A stretch of 64,000 bases of DNA from Embleya hyalina (GTDB taxonomy: Bacteria; Actinomycetota; Actinomycetes; Streptomycetales; Streptomycetaceae): positions 252,888 through 316,887 of the forward strand of contig NZ_BIFH01000015.1 of the NCBI RefSeq assembly GCF_003967355.1, read 5' to 3'. The notes under the pieces are model-generated. The model ran no database searches. It saw only the letters and a list, made by a program, of their open reading frames with translations, and was not told the origin of the DNA. Positions 16,957 through 55,074 of the stretch are shown here, one piece after another. The translations under genes were made by a program, and so were the position numbers. Each line of letters starts with the position of its first letter. Positions within the stretch are counted from its first letter, which is position 1.

Positions 16957-16990
16957 GACGGCGGAGGGGGGTGTTTCTCCTACCGCCGTC
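16957..16990 (-). terminator. Hairpin after dehydratase gene
   Basis: GACGGCGG (16957-16964) pairs with CCGCCGTC (16983-16990), extended by GAGG/CCT pairs. The distal arm overlaps the dehydratase stop codon (16989-16991). It probably ends the PKS/dehydratase transcript before the kinase promoter. Confidence 0.6.
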
Positions 16991-17465
16991 AGGGCGCGGC
17001 CAGGGGCGTCCCGGGGGCGACGAAGAGCGACAGGGTGTCCGCCACGCAGGCCGCCTGTTGCCGGCCCTCGACCTCCACCGTCATGCGCACGGCGGTCAGG
17101 TGGCCCGAGGGCGTTTCGCGTACGCCGGTGAGTCTGGCGCCGCCGCGGACGCGGGCCCCGACCGGCACGGGACGGGGGAAACGCACCTTGTCCAGGCCGA
17201 AGTTGACGCCGAGCTCGACCTTTTCGATCGCGAAGATCGCCCGCATCATCGCGGGCAGCAGCGCGAGCGTCATGTAGCCGTGGACGATGGTCCCGCCGAA
17301 CGGTCCGGTCGCCGCCCGTTCGGGATCCACGTGAATCCACTGGAGGTCGCCGGTCGCACCGGCGAATTGGTCGACGCTTCCCTGGGTGACTTCGAGCCAT
17401 TCGCTGTAGCCGAGGTGTTCGCCGGCCGCGCCGGCGAATTCCTCCAGGCTGGAAAAGGATCTCAT
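16989..17465 (-). CDS. MaoC-like hot-dog dehydratase of the type II PKS
   Basis: A 158-residue single hot-dog protein. The hydratase motif reads FAGATGDLQWIHVDPERA, with catalytic Asp40 and His45, followed by FGGTIVHGYMTLAL. This is the R-specific hydratase/dehydratase (MaoC) pattern. In highly reducing type II PKSs a protein of this type removes water from the beta-hydroxyacyl-ACP to give each double bond. I start it at ATG 17465 rather than upstream, since the fold begins at MRSFSSLEEF. It is separated from the SbnB-like gene by about 140 bases that contain a SARP-like heptamer array, so it may have its own promoter. Confidence 0.88.
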   Translation of the reverse strand: MRSFSSLEEFAGAAGEHLGYSEWLEVTQGSVDQFAGATGDLQWIHVDPERAATGPFGGTIVHGYMTLALLPAMMRAIFAIEKVELGVNFGLDKVRFPRPVPVGARVRGGARLTGVRETPSGHLTAVRMTVEVEGRQQAACVADTLSLFVAPGTPLAAP

Positions 17466-17527
17466 GCGGCAGATTCTGTGTGGGCGTCGAGGACGCGGCA
17501 AGGTACTCCGGGGCCGGTTGTTCGTTC

Positions 17528-17556
17528 GGTCAGCGCGCCGTCAGCCGGCTGTCAGC
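17528..17556 (+). promoter_or_regulatory. SARP-type heptamer array (three repeats, 11-bp period), reversed orientation
   Basis: GGTCAGC (17528-17534), CGTCAGC (17539-17545) and TGTCAGC (17550-17556) are spaced by exactly four bases. They match the heptamers of the other arrays in this window, but GTCAG here reads on the plus strand although both neighbours are minus-strand genes. It lies 62 bases from the dehydratase start. Confidence 0.6.
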
Positions 17557-17609
17557 GGTCGCCGGGGATCGCCCCGTCGCGACGCGCTTACAGCCGGCCG
17601 GGCAAGGCG

Positions 17610-18641
17610 TCAGCCGTAGCGCTTGAGCTCGTGGAAGAAGTCCGGGACGGTGTGCAGTCCGTCCGTCTCGCGGACCCGGTCGTACACGTACTTCGCGACG
17701 GCCATGTCGAGGACGCCCAGGCCGAACGGCGAGAAGACCACCGGCCGGTCGGCCGGCGGGGTGATCGCCCCGGTGAGCACGTCGTACAGCGTGCCGGCGA
17801 CGAACTCGCGGTGGCCGACCAGCTGTTCGGCCAGGTGTGGCGAGGTGTTCGCCTTCATGCAGTGCTCGATGTCGTCGACGATGTTCCACGAGTCCAGGAC
17901 GATCTCGGGGGACAGGTCCCGCAGGGAGACGTGCAGCACCAGCGGGTTGTGCGCGAACCATCGCGGGTCGCTCACGTGCGGCTCCCCCGCGACGGTGGCG
18001 AAGACGACCAGATCGCTCGCGCGGATCAGGTCCTCGGCCTTGTCGTGGATGGTGATCTCGCGGTCCACGCCCTCGGCCCGGCGCAGATAGCCCGCGAAAC
18101 CCTCGGCGTACTCGGCCGACACGTCGTGCACGCCGATCGACTCGAAGGCGAAGCCGCTGCCCGCGAGGTACCGGTGCACGTAGCGGGCGATCAGGCCGAC
18201 TCCGAAGAAGCCCACCCGCGTCGGGCGCCGCCCGCGCGCCTCGCCCAGCCGCGCCGCCGCGAGGGCCGCGGAGGCGGCGGTGCGCGCCGCGCTGATGATG
18301 GAGCTCTCCAGACAGGCGAACGGGTAGCCGGTCTCGGCGTCGTTGAGGATGAGCACGGCCGAGGCGCGCGGGATGCCGGCGGCCACGTTCTCCGGGAAGC
18401 TGGAGATCCACTTGATGCCGTGCACCTCCACATCGCCCTTGATCGACGCGGGCAGCGCGATGATCCGGGACGACGGACGGTCGGGGAAGCGCAGGAAGTA
18501 CGAGTCGGGGTTGACCGTCTGCCCCTCGCCGTGCAGCCGGTAGGCGGCCTCGATCGTCGCGACGACCTCTTCCTCGCGCCCGCCGAGGACTTGGTGCACC
18601 TGAGCACCGGAGACCACGGCGAAGGAAGGTACCTGATTCAT
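17610..18641 (-). CDS. sbnB: SbnB-like enzyme, L-2,3-diaminopropionate biosynthesis
   Basis: A 343-residue member of the ornithine cyclodeaminase/mu-crystallin family. SbnB oxidises N-(1-amino-1-carboxy-2-ethyl)-glutamate with NAD to release L-2,3-diaminopropionate and 2-oxoglutarate. Sequence signs: SYFLRFPDRPSSRIIALPA (substrate region), HGIKWISSFPENVAAGIPRASAVLILND, the dinucleotide-binding GFFGVGLIARYVHRYL, and SLRDLSPEIVLDSWNIVDD. These features match the SbnB branch rather than a true cyclodeaminase, and the presence of the SbnA-like partner 23 kb away in the same cluster confirms the pathway. The stand-alone FAD oxidoreductase gene ends 75 bases upstream. The product feeds the NRPS. 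Confidence 0.92.
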   Translation of the reverse strand: MNQVPSFAVVSGAQVHQVLGGREEEVVATIEAAYRLHGEGQTVNPDSYFLRFPDRPSSRIIALPASIKGDVEVHGIKWISSFPENVAAGIPRASAVLILNDAETGYPFACLESSIISAARTAASAALAAARLGEARGRRPTRVGFFGVGLIARYVHRYLAGSGFAFESIGVHDVSAEYAEGFAGYLRRAEGVDREITIHDKAEDLIRASDLVVFATVAGEPHVSDPRWFAHNPLVLHVSLRDLSPEIVLDSWNIVDDIEHCMKANTSPHLAEQLVGHREFVAGTLYDVLTGAITPPADRPVVFSPFGLGVLDMAVAKYVYDRVRETDGLHTVPDFFHELKRYG

Positions 18642-23861: not shown

Positions 23862-23922
23862 GTTTGTTTTCTCCGTTTCCCAGGTTCTCGAATTTGCCTT
23901 ACGGCAAAAATTAGTCAGCCTC

Positions 23923-23962
23923 GATGACGGGCCGATGACATTCAACTGACCGTTCACTGACG
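23923..23962 (-). promoter_or_regulatory. SARP-type operator and promoter of the PKS genes (four heptamers, 11-bp period)
   Basis: On the minus strand: CGTCAGT, GGTCAGT, TGTCATC, CGTCATC, each separated by four bases (plus-strand starts 23956, 23945, 23934, 23923). Nine bases beyond the last heptamer lies TAATTT (23913-23908), a good -10 box. This is the layout of SARP-activated promoters, where repeats replace the -35 element. The ACP start is 61 bases downstream. Confidence 0.85.
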
Positions 23963-41520: not shown

Positions 41521-42558
41521 TCAGCCGGAAATCGTTTCGAGTCCGGCGGTGAATCCGGACCCGATGTCCGCGTATTCGACGCCTGCCATGAGACCGTCCG
41601 GGCCGATCGAATCGCGCACCCAATCGTCGCGGTAGACGGTCTCCATATAGCGCTCGCCCAGGTCCGGCGAAATGGTCACGGCGGTCACCTGGTCGGGGCC
41701 GCCGGCGGTGCCGTCGCCGTAATGCTCGTCGAGCCAGTGGAGCGCTCCGCTCACGGCGGTTCCGGTCGAGCCGCCGAAGAGGAACCCGTGGCGCATCAAC
41801 TCGCGGCAGGTGCGGACGGTATCCGCCTCCTCGACATGGATCGCGGCATCCACCAGGGACTCGTCGAGCAGCGGCGGGCGCACGCTGGTGCCCAGGCCCG
41901 GGATGTGCCGGGTGGCCGCGGGACGCCCGAAGGTGACGGAGCCGACGCTGTCGACGGCGACCACACGCACCGACGGGCGCCGCTCCCGGAAGTAGCGCGC
42001 GCAGCCCATCAGGGTGCCGGTGGTGCCGGCGCCGATGAACAGCACGTTCAGATCGGGGAACTGGCGGGCGATGGCCGGCGCGGTGGTCCGGTAGTGGGCC
42101 ATCCAGTTGCCCGGGCTCAGGTACTGGTTGAGCCAGACCTTCTTGTCGTCGGCGGCGAGCAGCGCCTCGACGTACCGGATCCGCGCGCCGAGGAAGCCCT
42201 CGGTCTCGTGCGGCTCGGTGACGACGTGGACCTCGGCGCCGAAGGACTCCATGGTGCGCCGAGTCACCTCGTTGCACCGGGAGTCGGTCACGCACAGGAA
42301 CCTGAAGCCCCTGTTCGCGGCGAGCACGCTCAGGGCGACACCCATGTTCCCGGACGAGGACTCCACCAGGGTCGAGCCGGGGCCGAGCACACCCGCGGCC
42401 TCCGCCTGCGCGACCATCTCACGGGCCGCTTTCAGCTTGATGGATCCGGCGAAGTTGAATCCTTCGACCTTCAGAAAGAGACGACGCCCGAAGAGCGGCT
42501 GTAAATTCACGAAGAGGTCGCTGACCTCGAATTCATGCGACGCGGAAATAACCGGCAC
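41521..42558 (-). CDS. sbnA: SbnA-like synthase, first step of L-2,3-diaminopropionate biosynthesis
   Basis: About 345 residues of the PLP-dependent cysteine-synthase fold. SbnA joins O-phosphoserine and glutamate to N-(1-amino-1-carboxy-2-ethyl)-glutamate, the substrate of SbnB. Signs: GFNFAGSIKLKAA with PLP-binding Lys41, ESSSGNMGVALS, GAGTTGTLMGCARYFRE (phosphate loop) and FGGSTGTAVSGAL. Start GTG 42558 has CAGGAG 6 bases upstream; a TTG at 42585 would overlap the promoter. Codon 19 is TTA (42502-42504), so translation should depend on the rare Leu tRNA. It lies 55 bases upstream of NRPS-A and shares its transcript. Confidence 0.93.
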   Translation of the reverse strand: MPVISASHEFEVSDLFVNLQPLFGRRLFLKVEGFNFAGSIKLKAAREMVAQAEAAGVLGPGSTLVESSSGNMGVALSVLAANRGFRFLCVTDSRCNEVTRRTMESFGAEVHVVTEPHETEGFLGARIRYVEALLAADDKKVWLNQYLSPGNWMAHYRTTAPAIARQFPDLNVLFIGAGTTGTLMGCARYFRERRPSVRVVAVDSVGSVTFGRPAATRHIPGLGTSVRPPLLDESLVDAAIHVEEADTVRTCRELMRHGFLFGGSTGTAVSGALHWLDEHYGDGTAGGPDQVTAVTISPDLGERYMETVYRDDWVRDSIGPDGLMAGVEYADIGSGFTAGLETISG

Positions 42559-42615
42559 TGGCGACTCCTGGCCCTCGGCAACCAATTAGCCTGGACGGCC
42601 AGCCTCTCGCCGCGC

Positions 42616-42644
42616 GCTGACGAGGGGCTGACGGACTGCTGACG
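42616..42644 (-). promoter_or_regulatory. SARP-type operator upstream of sbnA/NRPS-A (three perfect repeats)
   Basis: Three identical GCTGACG heptamers on the plus strand (42616, 42627, 42638), i.e. CGTCAGC reading toward sbnA, with four-base spacers. The nearest AT-rich -10 candidate (TAATTG, 42588-42583) is 27 bases away, further than in the other arrays, so the promoter geometry is less ideal. Confidence 0.8.
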
Positions 42645-42683
42645 AGGGCGGCATCACGCGCGGCACGCCCACCTCGCAAGATG

Positions 42684-42723
42684 CGTCAGTGGCCCGTCAG
42701 TTATCGGTCACTTGAGTGTCAGT
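42684..42723 (+). promoter_or_regulatory. SARP-type operator and promoter of NRPS-C (four repeats)
   Basis: CGTCAGT (42684), CGTCAGT (42695), GGTCACT (42706) and TGTCAGT (42717) with exact 11-base period. Ten bases later lies TATGTT (42734-42739) as -10. This position makes in-frame starts at 42681 and 42735 unlikely and supports TTG 42780 as the NRPS-C start. Confidence 0.85.
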
Positions 42724-42779
42724 GCGATCCGCCTATGTTTGTCATTCCGCCTGTCCAGCTCTTCCGCGAGGAGTCCGGT

Positions 42780-45700
42780 TTGAATCGGCCGTCCGCGATC
42801 AGCGAAGTCCTCTCGCTCTCGCCGCTGCAACAGGGACTGCTCTTTCTTTCGGAGTACGACCGCGAGGGAACGGATGTCTACACCATCCAGCTGGTGCTCG
42901 ATTTCCGGGAGATGACCGACGCCGACGCCACGGCGCTGCGCGCCGCGGCGGGCGCGCTGCTGGAGCGGCACTCGAATCTGAGGGCATGCTTCCGGCACCG
43001 CAAGAACGGCGAGGCGATCCAGATGATCCCCAAGTCGGTGGCGCTGCCGTGGCACGAGGTGGAGGTGGTCGGCACCGGGAGCGGACCGGCCGCGTCGGTG
43101 GAGGCCGAGTTCGACCGGGTGGCCGAGGAGGACCGGCTGCGCCGCTTCGACCTGGCCCGGCCGCCGCTGCACCGGTTCACCCTGATCCGGGCGGGCGGCG
43201 GGCGTTGCCGCCTGGTGTGGACGGTGCACCACATCCTGGTGGACGGCTGGTCGATGGTCTCGCTGATCGGTGAACTGAACGCGCTGGTCGAGGAGTCGAA
43301 GTCGGGATCGGCCCACCCGGCGCCGGCGGGGGCCGCCTCGGCCTCGTACCACGCCTACCTGGCCTGGCTCGGCGCGCAGGACAAGCCCGCCGCGCGACGG
43401 GCCTGGACGCAGGCGCTGGCCGGTGTCACCGAGCCGACGCGGCTCGTCCCGGTGGCTCACACCGGCGCCGAGGACCGGGGCGCGCTGCCCGAGTCGGTTC
43501 CGCTCGACCTCTCCCCCGAGGTCTCCGCCGACCTCGTCCGGTTCGCCCGCTCGCGCGGCCTGACCGTCAACGCGGTGGTACAGGGCTGCTGGGCGCTGCT
43601 CCTGTCCAGGTCGACCGGCCAGGACACGGTGCTGTTCGGCGCCGTGACGTCGGGCAGACCGGCCCAGATCCCCGATGTCGAGCACATGGTGGGCCTGTTC
43701 GCCAACACGCTGCCGGTCCGCGTGGACGTCGACCCGTCCCGCACCCCGGCCGAGCTCTTCGCCGCGGTGCAGCGGGCCCAGGCCGACCTGCTGCCCCACG
43801 AGCACCTGCCTTTGGCGGAGGTGCAACAGCTCACCTCCGTGCGCGGTGAACTCTTCGACACGGCGCTGATGTTCCAGAACTATCCGATGGGGCCGATGCC
43901 GCACGCCACGACCGCGAACTCCCTGGTGACCGGCGTCGACATCCGCTCCGCCACGCACTACCCGATCACCCTCACGGTGTTTCCCGGCACCCCGCTCGGC
44001 CTCGCGGTCAACCATCGCCCCGGGGTGGTCACGCGCGCCGAGGCCCAGCGTGTGGGGCGGCGCTTCGCGCGGCTCCTGGAGTCCGCCGTCGCCCGGCCCG
44101 ACGTGCCGTGCGGCCGACTCGACATCCTGGACCGGGCGGAGCGGGCGCGCATCGTCGACGGGCGCAACGACACCGGGGTACCCCTTCCCGGCCACTGGCT
44201 GGCGCCGCTTTTCGACGCCCGGGCCGAACACACCCCGCACGCGCCCGCCGTCCGCTGCGGCGACGAGCGGCTCGACTATCACGAACTACTGACCAGGGCC
44301 GACGAGTTGGCCCATGCGCTGCGCGCGGCGGGCGCGGGCCCGGAGCGCACGGTGGCCATCGCGCTCGACCGGTCCTGCGCCCTCGTCGTGGCCGCACTGG
44401 CCGTGCTCAAGTCCGGCGCGGCCTACCTGCCGCTCGACCCCGACTACCCCGCCGACCGGCTGCGCTACATGCTGGCGGACGCCGCCCCCGTGGTGACGCT
44501 CACCGACCGACGGGTGCGCGAACTCCTCGTGGGCGATGGCGAGACGGGCACGGGACAGTGGTGGGTCCTCGACGAGCCGGGGTCCGTGCCCATCGCGCCC
44601 GTCCCTCGGGAGGACTCCCTTCCGGCTCCGCACGCCGACCATCCGGCGTACGTGATCTACACCTCGGGCTCGACCGGCCGCCCCAAGGGCGTCGTCGTGC
44701 CGCACGGCGCGCTGACCAACCTGGTCCACGACATGGTCGGGCGCTTCCGAGTGACCGCCGAGGACCGGTTCCTGGCGGTCACCACCTTCGGCTTCGACAT
44801 CGCCAATCTGGAGCTGTTCGTCCCGCTCGTGGCCGGCGCCGAACTGCTCGTCGCGGCCCGCGAGACCGTGCGCGACCCGGCCGCCCTGGCCGCCGCCGTC
44901 ACCGACCTCGGCGCCACCCTGATGCAGGCCACCCCCAGCCTGTGGGAGTCCCTCGCCGCCGACCACGCCCCCCGGCTGGCGGGTCTGCGGGCCCTGGTGG
45001 GCGGCGAGGCGCTGCCCGAACCACTCGCGCGCACGCTCACCGCGCACTGCGCGTCCGTGACCAATGTGTACGGCCCGACGGAGACGACGATCTGGTCGAC
45101 GGCCGCGTCCCTCACGGCGGACACCCCGGCCGATCCCGGCCCGCCGCCCATCGGCGGCCCCCTCGCCAACACGCGCGTGTACGTCCTCGACGGCGCCCTG
45201 CGCCCGGTGCCCGACGGCACCTTCGGCGAGTTGTACATCGCCGGATCCGGGCTCGCCCGCGGCTACCTCGACCGGCCGGGCCTGACCGCGGAGCGGTTCG
45301 TCGCCGACCCGTTCGCGCCGCACGGCGCGCGCATGTACCGCACCGGGGACGTGGTCCGCTGGGACGGCGCCGGCGGCGCCCTGGAGTACTCGGGGCGCAG
45401 CGACCACCAGGTCAAGATCCGCGGCCACCGCGTCGAACTCGGCGAGATCGAGTCCGTGCTCGCCGCGCAACCCGGGGTCCGGCAGGCCGCCGTCACGGCC
45501 GCCGCCGACCGGGCGGGGCACACCCGCCTGGTCGCCTATGTCGTACCGGCGGGGACCGACACCGACCAGCTGCGGGAGCGGGTCGCCTCGGTGCTGCCCA
45601 CGCACATGGTCCCCGCCGTGTACGTTCCCCTGGACGCGCTGCCGCTGACCCCGAACGGCAAGACCGACCGCAAGGCCCTGCCCGCGCCGCCCGACGAGCG

Positions 45701-48700
45701 GGCGGGCACGGGACGGGCGCCCGTGGGGGAGCACGAGGAACTGCTGTGCGCGGTCTTCGCGGCGGCGCTCGGACTCGAACGCGTCGGCGCCGACGACGAC
45801 TTCTTCGCCCTGGGCGGCCATTCGCTGTCCGCGACCACGGTCGCCAACCGGCTGCGCGCGGCCCTGGGCGTGGACGTCCCGGTGCGGTCCCTGTTCGACG
45901 CCCGCACGGCCGAGGCCCTGGCCCGCACGTTGTCCCCGGCCCTCGCCGGCGCCGACGCCGGGCCGGCCGCCGGCGACGCGCGCTCCGCGACGGTGTCCCG
46001 TACCCGTCGCCCCGTGCTGCGCGTCGTCCCGGGCCGCCCGTCCTCGGTGCTCCTGTCGTACGCCCAGGAGCGCCTGTGGTTTCTGGACAAGATGGACGGC
46101 CCTTCGGGCACGTACAACATCCCGCTGGCCGTGCGCCTCACCGGCCCGCTCGACGTCGGGGCGATGACCGCCGCCGTACGTGACGTGGTGGCCCGACACG
46201 AGAGCCTGCGCACCGTGTTCGCGGAGGCCGACGGGCTGCCCTCGCAGCTGATCCTGTCCGCCGACGAGGCGGATCGGGCGGGCGCGCGACTGGTCCACGT
46301 CGGCCTGCCGGGCTCGGAACCGGCCGGCCCGACCGCGGCCGGCGAGGCCGCGCTCGCCGCCGCGCTCGCCGCCGAGGCCGCCCACCCCTTCGAGCTGTCC
46401 GCCCAGGTTCCCCTGCGGGTCCGGCTGTTCACGATCGGGCCCGACTGCCACGTGCTCGCACTGACCGTGCATCACATCGCGGCCGACGGTTGGTCGCTCG
46501 GCCCGCTCACGCGCGATCTCGCCGACGCCTACGCGGCGCGGCTCGCGGGCGGCGCCCCGCGGTGGGAGCCGCTGCCCGCGCAGTACGCCGACTACGCCTT
46601 GTGGCAACGCGAACTGCTCGGCGCCAAGACCGACGCGGACAGCCTGGTCGCCGCCGAACTGGCCCACTGGCGCCGGACGTTGGCGGGCATCCCGGAGGAA
46701 CTGGACCTGCCCACCGACTTCCCGCGACCGGCGCGGGCCGGTCACCGCGGCTCGGAGGTCGCGTGCACGGTGCCCGCCGAGGTGCACGCGCGTCTCGCGG
46801 AACTGGCGCACCGCGGCGGCGCCAGCCTCTTCATGGCGGTCCAGGCCGGACTCGCCGCGCTGCTCACCCGACTGGGCGCGGGCACCGACATCCCCCTGGG
46901 CAGTGCGGTCGCGGGACGCAGCGACGACGCCGTCCGCGATCTCGTCGGCTTCTTCGTCAACACACTCGTGCTGCGCACCGACACCGGAGGCGATCCCACC
47001 TTCGCCGCTCTGCTCGCGCGGGTACGGGAGACCGATCTGACCGCCTACGCGCACGCCGAGTTGCCCTTCGAGCATCTCGTCGAGGAACTCAACCCGGTGC
47101 GCTCGATGGCCCGCCAACCGCTCTTCCAGGTGATGCTGGCGTTCGACAACGCGGACCCGCTGCCCGGAATGTCGGGGATTTCGGCCGCGGTCGAGCCGGT
47201 CGGCACGGTGACGGCGAAATTCGACCTCTCCTTCCACGTGACGGAGCAAACGACCGCGGACGGCGCGCCGGGCGGCCTCGACCTCCGCCTGCACTACCGC
47301 GAGGACCTGTTCACCGAGGCGACGGCGGATCGCCTCGCGCGGGCCCTCGCCACCCTCCTCGGCTCCGCCGCACGCAGCCCCCGCTCCCGGATCGGCGCCC
47401 TGGACCTGCTCACCGCCGAAGAGCGCCGCACGCTCTTGTCGGACCGGAGCGGACGCCTCGTCCCGCGGCCCCCGGTCACGCTCCCGGCCCTCTTCGAGGC
47501 GTACGCGGCCCAGGCCCCGGACCACCCGGCACTGGTCACCCCCGACGGCGTACCCGCCGGTTCCGGCTCCGTCCGTCTCACCTACGCGGAACTCGACACC
47601 CGGGCGAACCGTCTCGCCCACCTCCTGCTGGCGCGCGGGGTCGGCCCCGGGGACGTGGTCGCGCTGGCCCTGCCCCGGTCCGCGCACATGGTCGTCGCGC
47701 TGCTCGCCGTCCTCAAGACCGGCGCGGCCTATCTGCCCGTCGACCCCGAATATCCCGCCGAGCGCATCGTGTACATGCTCCGGGACGCGGCGCCGGCCGG
47801 GGTGTTGACCGTCGCGGCGGTCGCCGACCGGCTCCCCGAACCACCCGGGGGCACCGTCCCGCTCGTCCTGGATGCCCCCGCCGTCCTGGCCGAGTTGCGC
47901 GACCGGCCCGGCACCGACCCCACCGACGCCGACCGCACCCGGGCGCTGACCCCGCAGGACACCGCGTACGTCATCTACACCTCGGGCTCGACCGGTCGCC
48001 CCAAGGGTGTCGCCGTACCGCACTCGGGAGCGGCCAACCTGGCCGCCAACCTGCGTACGGACCTGGGCGCGGGGCCCGACACACGGGTGCTGCAGTTCGC
48101 CTCGTTCAGCTTCGACGCCACCGTGTGGGAACTGTGCGCCTCGCTGTTCTCCGGCGGCACCCTCGTCTTCGCCACCGACGACAGCCGGCTGTCCGGCGAA
48201 CTGCTGGCCGACCTGATCGCGGAGCACGGCGTCAACCACACGATCCTGCCGCCCACCGTCGTCGCCGGCATCCCCGACGCCGCGGTGTTGCCCGAGGGCA
48301 TGTGTCTGGCGGTCGGCGGCGAGGCCTGCCCGCCCGCCGTAAGCAATCGTTTCTGCCGGCACGTCGCCCTGCGCAACGCCTACGGCCCGACCGAGGCTTC
48401 GGTCTGCGCCACCTGGAGCGACCCGCTGACTCCGGAGGGCAGGCCGCCGATCGGACGGCCCCTGGACAACTTCCGGATGTACGTCCTCGACACCGGCCTG
48501 TCTTTGTCGCCCATCGGAGTCACCGGCGAGCTCTACATCGCCGGGGCCGGCCTGGCCCACGGCTACCTGGGCCGCCCCGTCACCACCGCCGAGCGTTTCG
48601 TCGCGGACCCGTTCGGGCCGGCCGGCACCCGCATGTACCGCACCGGCGACCTCGTGCGGTGGCGACCCGACGGCACCCTGGACTACGTCGGCCGCTCCGA

Positions 48701-50009
48701 CCACCAGGTCAAGCTGCGTGGTTTCCGTATCGAGTTGGGGGAGATCGAGGCCACCCTCGTCCGCCACCCGGTGATCACCCAGGCCGTCGTCGCCGTCGTC
48801 CCCACGCCCACCGGGGAACCCCAACTGATCGGGTACGTCGTGCCCGTGCCCGGCGTCGCCGCCGTCGACGTGCCGGTGCTGCGCGCGCACGCCGCCGAGT
48901 CGCTGCCCGCGCACATGGTGCCCGTGTCCCTGGTCACGTTGCCCGCGCTGCCGTTGACGGCGAACGGCAAGCTCGACACCCGCGCCCTGGCGGCGGCCGG
49001 AACGGGCACCGCCGCCGCCCCGGTTCCGGTGCGTGCGCCGGGCACGGCCGCCGAGAAGGTGGTCGCCGGGGTCTTCGGCGAGATCCTCGGCCTCGAACAG
49101 GTCGGCGTCGACGGGGACTTCTTCGCCCTGGGCGGCGACAGCCTGCGCTCGGTGCAGGTCGTGAGCCGGGCCGCCAAGGCCGGGCTCACGCTCTCGCTGG
49201 CCGATGTCTTCACCCACAAGACGGTGGCGGCCCTCGCCGCGGCGGCCCGGCCCACCACCGTGCGGGCGCCCGCCACACTCCCGTCCGCCATGACCGCGCC
49301 GGTCCTGCCCATCCGCCCGGCCGGCACCGCGGAGCCCCTCTTCTGCGTGCACGGCGGTGTCGGCTTCGGGCTGCCGTACGCGGAACTGGCCCCGCACATC
49401 GACGCGGCCCGGCCCGTGTACGCGCTGCAGTCCGACGGCATCGCGACGCACGGGGACGACCGCGAGCAACCTCGGGACGTACCGGCGCTCGCGGCCACGT
49501 ATCTGGCACGCGTCCGGCAGGTGCAGCCACAGGGTCCCTACCACCTCATGGGCTGGTCCTTCGGCGGCCTGGTCGCGCACGAGATGGCCGTGCAGCTCCA
49601 GGCGGCGGGTGAGCGTGTCGCCTTCCTGGCGGCGTTGGACATCTACCCCGTCGCTCCGCACGACCCGAACCCCTCCGACGAAGAGGTCCGCACCGCCTTC
49701 CTGGAACACCACGCCGCGGGGGCCGCGATCACCGAGGAGGAGCTACGCCGTCTGACCGCGATCATGCGCCGGCACATCGACATGGCAAGGGAGTTCACGC
49801 CGGGCCGCTTCACCGGACCGCTGACCCTGTTCGTCGCCGCCGGCGAGCACCGGGACACCCCGGTCGCCGAACTCGTGGATCGCTGGCGCCCACACCTGGA
49901 CGGACCACTCACGGTGCACGAAGTGCCTTGCGACCACGAGGAGATGCTTTCCCCCGAGGCCGCCCGTCGAATCGGCGCGTTCACCGACGCGGCCCTGAAC
50001 AGGGCCTGA
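42780..50009 (+). CDS. NRPS-C: C-A(Gly)-T-C-A-T-TE
   Basis: 2409 residues from TTG 42780, which has GAGGAG (42768-42773) 6 bases upstream. C1 1-435 (HHILVDG 150-156) opening [12 protein letters not shown]1 470-975 with code D-I-L-Q-L-G-V-I-W, a Gly code. T1 985-1052 (GGHSL, Ser1015). C2 1080-1500 with canonical HHIAADG. A2 1540-2045, code D-A-W-I-A-G-A-V-C, which I cannot assign; the D-A-W...V-C frame resembles hydrophobic/aromatic codes. T2 2065-2130 (GGDSL). TE 2150-2409 (GWSFGG, Ser2260). It is the only plus-strand NRPS, divergent from sbnA. A second TE-terminated synthetase in one cluster is unusual. Confidence 0.92.
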
Positions 50010-50075: not shown

Positions 50076-50834
50076 TCACAACGAGGGATCCTGCATCAGG
50101 ATCGCCTGGTAGAGGTGGTGAAGGCGACTGTTCGGCTTGAGCCCCAACTCCTGGTCGAGCCACTTGCGCGTGCGGTGGAAGACGTCGACGGCCTCGGACT
50201 GCCGTCCGCAGCGGTACAGGGCGATCATCAACTGCTCGCTGAACCGCTCGCGTTCGGGGTACTGCGCGAGCAGCTGCTTCAGTTCGGCGACGACGGTGCC
50301 CGCCTCGCCGAGTTGGAGCTGGGCCGCGATGAGGTCTTCGCGCGCGGTCTTGCGCTGTTCGTCGAGACGCAGCGCCACGGCCCGGCACCAGGGTCCGTCA
50401 CTCGTGTCGAGCAGGGCCGGCCCACGCCACATGGCCAGCGCCTCACGCAGCAGATCCATGGCCTCGTGCGGCCGGTCGCCGACCAGGCCCGCGCCCTTGC
50501 CCGCCGTTTGCAGAAAGCGATACGCGTCCACGGCGTCGGCGGGGATGTTCAGCGTGTAGCCGTTGTCCACCGTACGAATGAGCTCGTGGCCGGGCCCTCC
50601 GAGCCCTAACTCGGCCAGCGACCTGCGCACCCGCTTGACGTTCGCCTGTAACGCGTTGCGCGTGTTCTTGAGCGGAGCCTCACCCCACAGTTCGTCGATC
50701 AGCTCGTCGAAGGTGACCACCTGACCGATGTTGAGGGCCAGCATGGTGAGCATCACCCGGTTCTTCTTCGCGCGTATACCGACGGTTCTCTGACCGTCTC
50801 CTATCAGCAGCGGACCCAATATGGAGATGTACAC
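50076..50834 (-). CDS. SARP-family pathway activator with TTA codon
   Basis: A 252-residue Streptomyces antibiotic regulatory protein. Winged-helix (OmpR-like) DNA-binding domain at residues 1-90 (ISILGPLLIGDG, VVTFDELIDELWGEAPLKNTRNALQANVKRVRRSL), then a bacterial transcriptional activation domain (AYRFLQTAGKG, ALAMWRGPALLD, REDLIAAQLQLGE, ALYRCGRQSEAVDVFHRTR). The size is that of small SARPs such as ActII-ORF4 and RedD. GTG 50834 follows a GGGGGA site. The Leu codon in AELGLGG is TTA (50607-50609), placing the activator under bldA control. It is the obvious binder of the heptamer arrays in this window. Confidence 0.93.
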   Translation of the reverse strand: MYISILGPLLIGDGQRTVGIRAKKNRVMLTMLALNIGQVVTFDELIDELWGEAPLKNTRNALQANVKRVRRSLAELGLGGPGHELIRTVDNGYTLNIPADAVDAYRFLQTAGKGAGLVGDRPHEAMDLLREALAMWRGPALLDTSDGPWCRAVALRLDEQRKTAREDLIAAQLQLGEAGTVVAELKQLLAQYPERERFSEQLMIALYRCGRQSEAVDVFHRTRKWLDQELGLKPNSRLHHLYQAILMQDPSL

Positions 50835-50969
50835 CAAAATCCCCCGTCTACCGTTGAATTCGAGTCACAAGCTGTTCTCTTGGAACCTCAGGCCTGCCAC
50901 ATGGAACAACGGTCGACTCGTTCCGGGCGACCCGAAGGAGGGTAAGAATCCAGGTGGTATTCACGATGG

Positions 50970-53880: not shown

Positions 53881-54588
53881 CTACTTGACACCCGGCCTGT
53901 GTCGCATGTCGCCGGTTTCCGTGGGTGACATTGGGTACCACATCCTCGGTGAAACGTAAAAGGGTCCGTCACCGAGCAGCGCGACGGACCCCACATATCC
54001 TTCGGGAAGCGGCAGGTCGGCAACTCTCCACGGTCTCGCGAACGGACCCGAACGGGAGTGCACGGTGGCCTGCCGCGCGGTGTGGGCGACGGGAATCGCC
54101 ATGCTCTCGGTGAGCCTGCCGCCCACCGCCTTCACACACGCCTCCTTCCTCGTCCACAGCCGAGTGAAGGCGCCGTGCCCGTCGCGCGCCACCAACTCCC
54201 GCTCCTCGTCGCGGAAGAAGCGCCGGGCCAACCGCTCGATGTCCAGGTTCGGGCGGGCCAGTTCCACGTCCACCCCGACCGGCCGCGATGCCAGGGCGAG
54301 CAGGGCGATCCCACCCGAGTGCGACAGGCTGAAGTGCAGCCCCGACCCCTCGACGACCGGCTTGCCCCACCGGCCGCGGGTGAAGCACAGGGAGGCCGGC
54401 GGGCGGCCCAGACGCTCGCCGACGACGATCCGGGTCGCGGCGTGCGCGATCACGAAACGACGCCGCATTCCCGGCACCAGGCCACGCCCGGCGCGGGCCT
54501 TCTCGTCCTCGTCGAGGAGATCTTCGAGGGGGGCCGGACAGTGGTCCGGGTCGCCCTCACCGTCGAGCGCAATCCGCCAGACCTCCAC
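53881..54588 (-). CDS. Sfp-type 4'-phosphopantetheinyl transferase
   Basis: About 235 residues. Core motifs: LHFSLSHSGGIALLALA, VGVDVELAR (magnesium-binding Asp/Glu) and FTRLWTRKEACVKAVGG (W-x-x-K-E-x-x-x-K). These define the Sfp group that activates NRPS T domains and PKS ACPs by adding phosphopantetheine from CoA. GTG 54588 with GGGAAAGA just upstream gives the usual family opening VEVWRI; the frame stays open further upstream to 54858 but that start would lie inside an operator. Its promoter carries a SARP array, so activation of the carrier proteins appears to be switched on with the cluster. Confidence 0.9.
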   Translation of the reverse strand: MEVWRIALDGEGDPDHCPAPLEDLLDEDEKARAGRGLVPGMRRRFVIAHAATRIVVGERLGRPPASLCFTRGRWGKPVVEGSGLHFSLSHSGGIALLALASRPVGVDVELARPNLDIERLARRFFRDEERELVARDGHGAFTRLWTRKEACVKAVGGRLTESMAIPVAHTARQATVHSRSGPFARPWRVADLPLPEGYVGSVALLGDGPFYVSPRMWYPMSPTETGDMRHRPGVK

Positions 54589-55074
54589 TCTTTCCCGACC
54601 GTTCTCCCGCTCGACGGCCGGCCGGCCGGGGTCACCGCGGTCCGCGCTCACCGGGAAGGCGACCGTGGCACGTCCACGACGACCGGCCCGAAGGCGCGAG
54701 CGTGGTGCGAGACGAAGCGCCGGTACCGCCTCGACCGGACATCCGGCGGCTGAAGTCCCTGCCGAGAAAAGGCAATGTGGATAGTGTCGGGAAGGCAGCC
54801 GGAAACCGCCGGGATAGACGTCATGCCAACTACATTGGCGGAGAGCGCTGACGCCCAACTGACGGTGGACTGACTACAGTCCCGGTGGTGTCGCCGCTTT
54901 CACGAGAGAGCACGCCCCGGATGGCCCGGGGCGCGTCGGGTAAACATCCGCCCGGCGCACGCATTTGCGCCCGCGGCGCGCCCGCGGCGCGTGCGCGGTC
55001 GTTCCGACACCCGCCGACATTCGGCGGTATCGGCGCCCGATTTCGTGATGCTTCGGTGACCTTTCCGTCACCCT
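54589..55074. other. Right cluster border: PPTase leader and protease 3' region
   Basis: About 490 bases. It holds the SARP-type array (54847-54875) and the presumed leader of the PPTase mRNA (about 240 bases, long). At 55055-55072 GGTGAC/GTCACC forms a small 6-bp hairpin just after the protease stop. No further gene was supported. Confidence 0.5.
54847..54875 (-). promoter_or_regulatory. SARP-type operator upstream of the PPTase gene (three repeats)
   Basis: On the minus strand AGTCAGT, CGTCAGT, CGTCAGC with four-base spacers (plus-strand starts 54869, 54858, 54847). Nine bases later CAATGT may act as a weak -10. It matches the arrays of the ACP and NRPS-C promoters. Confidence 0.8.

Follow-up and report, generated by a model that had tools for sequence, protein, structure and literature searches.

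The 64,000-nucleotide stretch of Embleya hyalina analysed here (NCBI RefSeq assembly GCF_003967355.1, contig NZ_BIFH01000015.1, positions 252,888 to 316,887 of the forward strand; hereafter the window) carries a biosynthetic gene cluster in which sbnA, a gene of 2,3-diaminopropionate biosynthesis, and NRPS-C, which encodes a nonribosomal peptide synthetase (NRPS), face away from each other. The region between them contains two arrays of heptameric direct repeats of the kind bound by Streptomyces antibiotic regulatory proteins (SARPs). We consider it very probable, from the sequence patterns described below, that this region holds two independent SARP-dependent promoters and that the cluster is co-induced through five such arrays, of which the one at the maoC-like dehydratase gene would act in a class I-like manner. 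A cluster-specific activator would be expected to dock at these repeats and to switch on a peptide-antibiotic-type cluster in both directions. The divergent feature itself is real and ordinary in kind.

Repeat arrays of the divergent sbnA/NRPS-C region

The array facing sbnA (42616..42644, minus strand) is composed of three perfect CGTCAGC heptamers, at 42644-42638, 42633-42627 and 42622-42616, exactly as the original prediction had placed them. The array facing NRPS-C (42684..42723, plus strand) has four heptamers, CGTCAGT at 42684 and 42695, GGTCACT at 42706 and TGTCAGT at 42717. The repeat period is exactly 11 base pairs (bp) throughout both arrays. Four CGTCAGT-like repeats built from GTCAG had been reported on the NRPS side; their number and period hold, but the third has a GTCAC core where the aligned relatives, the same-genus genome excepted, have GTCAG. 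In the region 42400-43000 no known structured RNA was matched at the Rfam gathering threshold, and neither array folds clearly better than shuffled sequence.

Conservation was assessed in an alignment of 18 orthologous loci (the window, a same-genus genome, the 14 loci L015-L028 and two more). Three further loci with sbnA at 72-75 percent (L029-L031) also have sbnA-facing arrays and were left out of this set. The sbnA-facing array is present in all 18 loci and the NRPS-facing array in 17, L020 being the locus without it. Across the set, the columns of the GTCAG core have a conservation of 0.99 and the 4-nt spacers one of 0.67-0.72. The two arrays are not at a constant distance in the relatives, their starts lying 14 to 100 nt apart, which argues for two separate promoters rather than one coupled structure. 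The SARP-operator architecture proposed from the window alone is therefore borne out, since both arrays match the published SARP geometry and are kept in orthologous clusters.

Predicted promoter geometry and start sites

The predicted -10 element of the sbnA promoter, GAGGCT (42601..42606, minus strand), begins 9 nt past the last heptamer and puts the transcript start near 42594. On the other side, the -10 element already named in the original prediction, TATGTT, was found at 42734..42739 (plus strand), 10 nt past the last heptamer, with a predicted start near 42746. Among the relatives, a hexamer of the form NAnnnT starts 9 nt after the last repeat in 18/18 sbnA promoters; in the NRPS promoters (n=17) it stands at gap 9 in 12 and at gap 10 only in five, the TATGTT of the window being one of these. 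The published rule is a distance of 8 bp between the 3' repeat and the -10 element (PMC10936776; here and below, statements on published systems draw on portions of the papers cited). As the AfsR structure contacts 8 bp of each repeat (PMC10936776), a gap of 9 counted from a 7-mer is the same distance, and gaps of 9-10 from CGTCAGY become 8-9, so that the 3' repeat lies about 8 bp from the -10 element in 18/18 and 17/17 promoters. By position, the -35 region (16-19 nt before the -10 element) falls inside the array, and heptameric direct repeats at 11 (or 22) bp complete the usual picture of a SARP operator. A TTG occurs 16-19 nt before the -10 element in 5 of the 35 sbnA and NRPS promoters, and there it lies inside the array.

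This geometry revises one element of the original prediction, namely transcript starts 40-50 bases past the repeats; the conserved -10 elements predict 22-23 nt after the last repeat. The hexamer TAATTG (42588-42583, minus strand) looks better than GAGGCT as an sbnA -10 element and was rejected, TAATT being kept in only 7/18 loci, compared with 18/18 for the NAnnnT at gap 9.

The NRPS-C gene (42780..50009, plus strand) starts at TTG 42780 behind the ribosome site GAGGAG. This pair is kept in 17/18 loci, the eighteenth (L020) having matched another stretch, and resolves the start codon as had been claimed. Two in-frame ATGs lie upstream of the predicted transcript start, one at 42681, shortly ahead of the array, and one at 42735, within the -10 element. 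The sbnA gene (41521..42558, minus strand) is above the TIGR03945 cut-off, and its start, GTG 42558 with AGGAG, was chosen from the frame and the ribosome-binding site.

Distribution of the arrays in the genome and the family

The pattern GTCAG-N6-GTCAG-N6-GTCA has five matches in the 12.05-Mb genome, all within the window, against one for the backward control; this fixed pattern is independent of any matrix, yet it was picked after the window had been seen. The five sites are the two divergent arrays and the arrays at the acyl carrier protein (ACP)/ketosynthase genes, at the phosphopantetheinyl transferase (PPTase) gene and at maoC. The genome-wide motif search suggested originally, run in this form, thus revealed three more arrays in the cluster, including an inverted one. 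A looser pattern gave nine matches in the genome, with one for the backward control. Seven of the nine fall on the five sites of the window; the two elsewhere (G000, C25:291721 and C26:215964) are looser GTCA triples with an 11-bp period outside the cluster.

Two scoring matrices were used, one made from the 17 heptamers of the window (for the window scan and some loci) and a slightly different one for the divergent and maoC alignments and for the 74-array test described below. In the scan of the 64 kb, the five arrays stand far above Markov sequences, and none of the top-scoring arrays lies at the SARP gene or the MMPL exporter. Among 20 order-3 Markov sequences as long as the window, three repeats scored at most 19.1 (31.2 and 30.0 here) and four repeats at most 15.4 (41.2 here), a comparison that flatters the window because the matrix was made from its own repeats. 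Taken singly, the heptamer CGTCAGC shows no enrichment in the window (14 copies against 21 expected), so it is the 11-bp tandem order that carries the signal.

GTCAG arrays, with at least one strict match, occur in 264 of the 394 family genomes. A GTCAGG-type triple with identical matched sequence was seen in two same-genus genomes (L006 and L012; G001 and G002) outside this cluster, and in Saccharothrix (L037, L041 and L065) sbnA homologs are preceded at about 1.2 kb by GTCAGC/T arrays that have a -10 element at ordinary spacing.

The SARP regulator and a proposed mechanism

A small SARP gene lies at 50076..50837 (minus strand), where the original prediction had located one (50.1-50.8 kb). 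Its product has an OmpR-type DNA-binding domain (Trans_reg_C, PF00486) followed by a BTAD (PF03704), both above cut-off and in the order that defines SARP proteins, and its best solved matches are the AfsR structures, at about 1e-30. It is likely the cognate activator of these arrays, as judged from its sequence and place. Among the 21 BTAD matches of the genome, the recognition helix could be aligned in 20, and NALQANVKRVRRSL is found in the window SARP only, the nearest others sharing 9/14 residues. The window SARP has Arg at the place of AfsR Arg92, the residue that recognises the T of the repeat, and Ala at that of Thr88. Orthologs (E 1e-70 or better) are present in 20 of the 394 family genomes, which have a median of 5.5 strict matches per genome, compared with 1 in the other 374.

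In the mechanism that we propose, SARP protomers, most likely encoded at 50076-50837, would sit next to one another on the tandem GTCAG heptamers, along a single face of the DNA. At the four ordinary arrays, following the AfsR model, a SARP dimer would replace the absent -35 element, contacting region 4 of the sigma factor and the alpha C-terminal domains, and would open a weak -10 element beginning 9-10 nt past the last repeat. The outcome would be that sbnA and the genes behind it are switched on, and NRPS-C in the other direction. The three further arrays of the cluster would be read by the same regulator, so that most of the biosynthetic genes would be co-induced.

The SARP gene has two TTA codons, at positions 63 (inside the recognition helix) and 77, and such codons, one or two per gene and in differing places, also occur in 9 of 14 SARP homologs of 63-98 percent identity; this suggests bldA control. 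Another BTAD protein, encoded by a short reading frame (355 amino acids) about 20 kb beyond the window (G000, C15:336562), has a different recognition helix.

An inverted array upstream of maoC

The fifth array (GGTCAGC, CGTCAGC and TGTCAGC; 17528..17556, plus strand) is located in the sbnB-maoC interval, its heptamers pointing away from maoC. At 26 nt from it stands the predicted -35 element of the maoC promoter, TTGCCG (17496..17501, minus strand), followed by a predicted -10 element, CAGAAT (17473..17478, minus strand), with a predicted start at 17466/17465; the transcript would be leaderless, the maoC-like dehydratase gene (16989..17465, minus strand; Pfam MaoC_dehydratas) beginning with ATG 17465. 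Behind sbnB in the window there is a strong hairpin (17528-17612, minus strand, z -5.0), which may be a terminator, leaving maoC as its own unit.

The locus was compared in 19 distinct genomes with sbnB, of which 16 have maoC adjoining it; S. alfalfae, S. lilacinus and S. triticagri have no maoC beside sbnB and were excluded from the maoC counts. The inverted array is present in 13 of the 16, in a common layout of three repeats, 26 nt, TTG(T/C)C(C/G), N17-18, NANAAT, 7 nt and ATG, in which the -35 and -10 elements are predictions from sequence. The distance from array to TTG is 26 nt in 12 of the 13 and 27 in one; the -35-like hexamer is generally TTGTCC, and TTGCCG in the window and its congener. 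In all 13, the TTG stands 16-19 nt before the -10 element and the array ends 62-64 nt from the maoC ATG, while the array start falls anywhere from -5 to +117 nt from the sbnB stop. Mean identity in these promoters is 63 percent for the 26-nt stretch and 89 percent for the heptamers. The remaining three genomes (FH025, Kitasatospora sp. SUK 42 and CBMA123) have a maoC array of ordinary orientation; GAGAAT follows it after 10 nt, and the ATG comes after another 6 nt.

The matrix alone found 74 distinct arrays across the loci compared, and 61 of them have a -10 element at gap 9 or 10 (background 3.5 percent), although many are mutually orthologous and hence not independent events. The other 13, which lack it, are the full set of inverted maoC arrays. 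These share the heptamer consensus and 11-bp period of the regulon, but none (0/13) combines gene-facing orientation with a 3' repeat about 8 bp from the -10 element, and for this reason we do not class them as canonical SARP operators. What they do have is a fixed distance upstream of a predicted -35/-10 promoter, as in class I activation. The array would then lie upstream of a promoter with its own -35 element and the SARP would act from the side of the alpha C-terminal domain, for which the 26-nt gap would leave room. That a -35-like TTG is present when the maoC array is far, and replaced by the array when it is close, fits class I versus sigma-adaptation use of one protein.

In the SbnB tree (a single gene, midpoint rooted, 21 rows of which five are unlabelled), the three ordinary-type genomes form one clade (support 100/99) nested within the inverted type, which makes one switch towards the ordinary layout the simplest reading. 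Taken more generally, it seems somewhat more probable than its opposite that SARPs can also act as class I activators when the array is inverted and placed about 63-92 nt ahead of the start, with about 26 nt of DNA left for the alpha C-terminal domain before a genuine -35 element. The inverted layout would probably be ancestral at maoC, with one clade having swapped to an ordinary array, and one regulator would be using two interchanging geometries.

Alternative explanations

Several observations weigh against the model of SARP-dependent co-induction. The orthologs are related and so do not count as independent evidence, and the third NRPS-side repeat is imperfect within the genus of the window. 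A second NAnnnT occurs at gap 22 in 12/18 sbnA promoters (CAGGCT, 42593-42588, minus strand, in the window), and sbnA transcription could start 13 nt further down, at 42581, although this hexamer is less conserved than that at gap 9. As to the regulator, the association between SARP and arrays is partly trivial, both being in one cluster, and is weak evidence for binding; 244 of the 264 array-bearing genomes are without this SARP at the E-value used, and other SARPs probably read the same core. It is also conceivable, though unlikely, that the main reader of the operators is a different SARP, or a global protein of the AfsR type, whose gene lies elsewhere in the genome. There are 20 other BTAD matches in the genome, and several of these proteins likewise carry Arg where AfsR has Arg92, so that this residue is not discriminating; GTCAG arrays are also common in the family. 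On the other hand, the strict arrays are confined to this cluster within the genome, the in-cluster SARP is conserved together with the cluster, and no other aligned helix of the genome matches at more than 9/14 residues. Chance repetition of GTCAG in GC-rich DNA would be compatible with the lack of enrichment of CGTCAGC alone, but is strongly disfavoured, to the point of being barely credible, by the genome-wide confinement, the conservation and the spacing to the -10 element.

At maoC, the direction of the heptamers in 13 of the 16 genomes would also suit an operator of an opposite transcript running into the 3' end of sbnB. We regard this as distinctly unlikely, given that the array is keyed to the maoC ATG and not to the sbnB stop, and an antisense promoter was rejected because none of the 13 has a -10 element on that side at a gap of 9 or 10. 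It is very unlikely that the repeats are simply part of a terminator behind sbnB. The 3' region of sbnB including the first repeat does fold strongly in the one sequence folded, that of the window (z -5.0); however, in MAA19 a G+C-rich inverted repeat, seen by eye, precedes the array, and the 11-bp triple and its 26-27 nt to the TTG are kept in 13/13. Class I-like activation of maoC by the SARP remains the preferred reading of this array.

Gene content and the remaining arrays

The cluster (16989-50009) combines the diaminopropionate genes with three NRPSs, two of them with a thioesterase, and two ketosynthase-like genes. SbnA and SbnB both reach the NCBIfam cut-offs. NRPS-C has two condensation, two adenylation and two carrier domains and one thioesterase, and the two minus-strand NRPSs have two adenylation domains each, one also with a thioesterase. 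Further genes encode an MbtH protein, an ACP, a ketosynthase, a second ketosynthase-like protein, a ketoreductase, an FAD oxidoreductase, the MaoC dehydratase, an ABC exporter and the PPTase. The enamidonin/autucedine family is a weak lead for the product: besides its two ketosynthase-like genes, the cluster has six adenylation domains across the three NRPSs, against the four-residue backbone of olenamidonin (PMC11204786), a comparison made with the backbone description only.

Judging from positions and strands, the ordinary arrays would serve the genes from sbnA to the ABC exporter, NRPS-C, the genes from the ACP to sbnB, and the PPTase, the fifth array belonging to maoC. The array of four heptamers at 23923..23962 (minus strand; CGTCAGT, GGTCAGT, TGTCATC and CGTCATC) faces the genes for the ACP, ketosynthase, ketosynthase-like CLF, ketoreductase, oxidoreductase and SbnB, and its predicted -10 element is TAATTT (23913-23908, gap 9), which puts the transcript start at 23901. 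It is found in 6/6 clusters whose ACP region was compared and is degenerate in one genome (G388); the -10 element was checked separately in four of the six, and all array types jointly in the 74-array test. The array upstream of the PPTase gene (54847..54875, minus strand; AGTCAGT, CGTCAGT and CGTCAGC), with the predicted -10 element CAATGT (54837-54832, gap 9), is present in 2 of the 7 clusters whose PPTase region was compared, those of the window and the same-genus genome. About 240 nt separate the predicted start at 54825 from the PPTase GTG at 54588 (54588-54831, minus strand). A leaderless open reading frame in front of the PPTase gene, with ATG 54824, shows by eye many amino-acid changes relative to the same-genus genome and was not counted as a gene.

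Comparison with known systems

The closest parallel is AfsR at the afs box of afsS in Streptomyces coelicolor (PMC10936776), where 11-bp direct repeats likewise cover the spacer between -35 and -10 and the -10 element is of the same weak NAnnnT type (CACTGT). AfsR shares its DNA-binding and BTA domains with the window SARP, including the T-reading Arg; the afs box has two repeats instead of three or four, and AfsR Thr88 is replaced by Ala in the window SARP. OtcR at the oxy/ctc promoters (PMC4393881) is also a cluster-situated SARP with several 11-bp repeat operators, some in divergent promoters, and with the 3' repeat 8 bp from the -10 element, but its repeat sequence differs (CGGTCGAAG in oxyI). 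SanG, PolR and VlmI have sites between or upstream of cluster genes as here (PMC10972967); those of VlmI have three heptamers, like the present arrays (PMC10972967), whereas those of SanG and PolR have two, with the consensus CGGCAAG (PMC3367932).

For the maoC array, the one resembling case that we found is PimR at pimM, a SARP described as binding upstream of the -35 element (PMC3367932, PMC5930380) and for which a class I mode is favoured (PMC5930380). PimR differs in being a SARP-LAL with CGGCAAG repeats, and the portions of these two papers covered do not describe arrays inverted at a set distance. In the passages covered of the literature searched, which included few subscription papers, inverted SARP arrays were not described, and an earlier description may exist.

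Biological significance

For this cluster, the divergent promoter gives the regulon at base level, resolves a start codon and predicts where transcripts begin. The maoC layout would matter more, as SARP descriptions, in the portions covered here and PimR excepted, place the array over the -35 region beside the -10 element. The regulon appears to hold a conserved and unusual variant, an inverted upstream array. The 61 arrays that follow the rule and the 13 orthologous ones that consistently deviate from it offer natural promoter pairs of the same gene for the rules of position and orientation by which SARPs would act.
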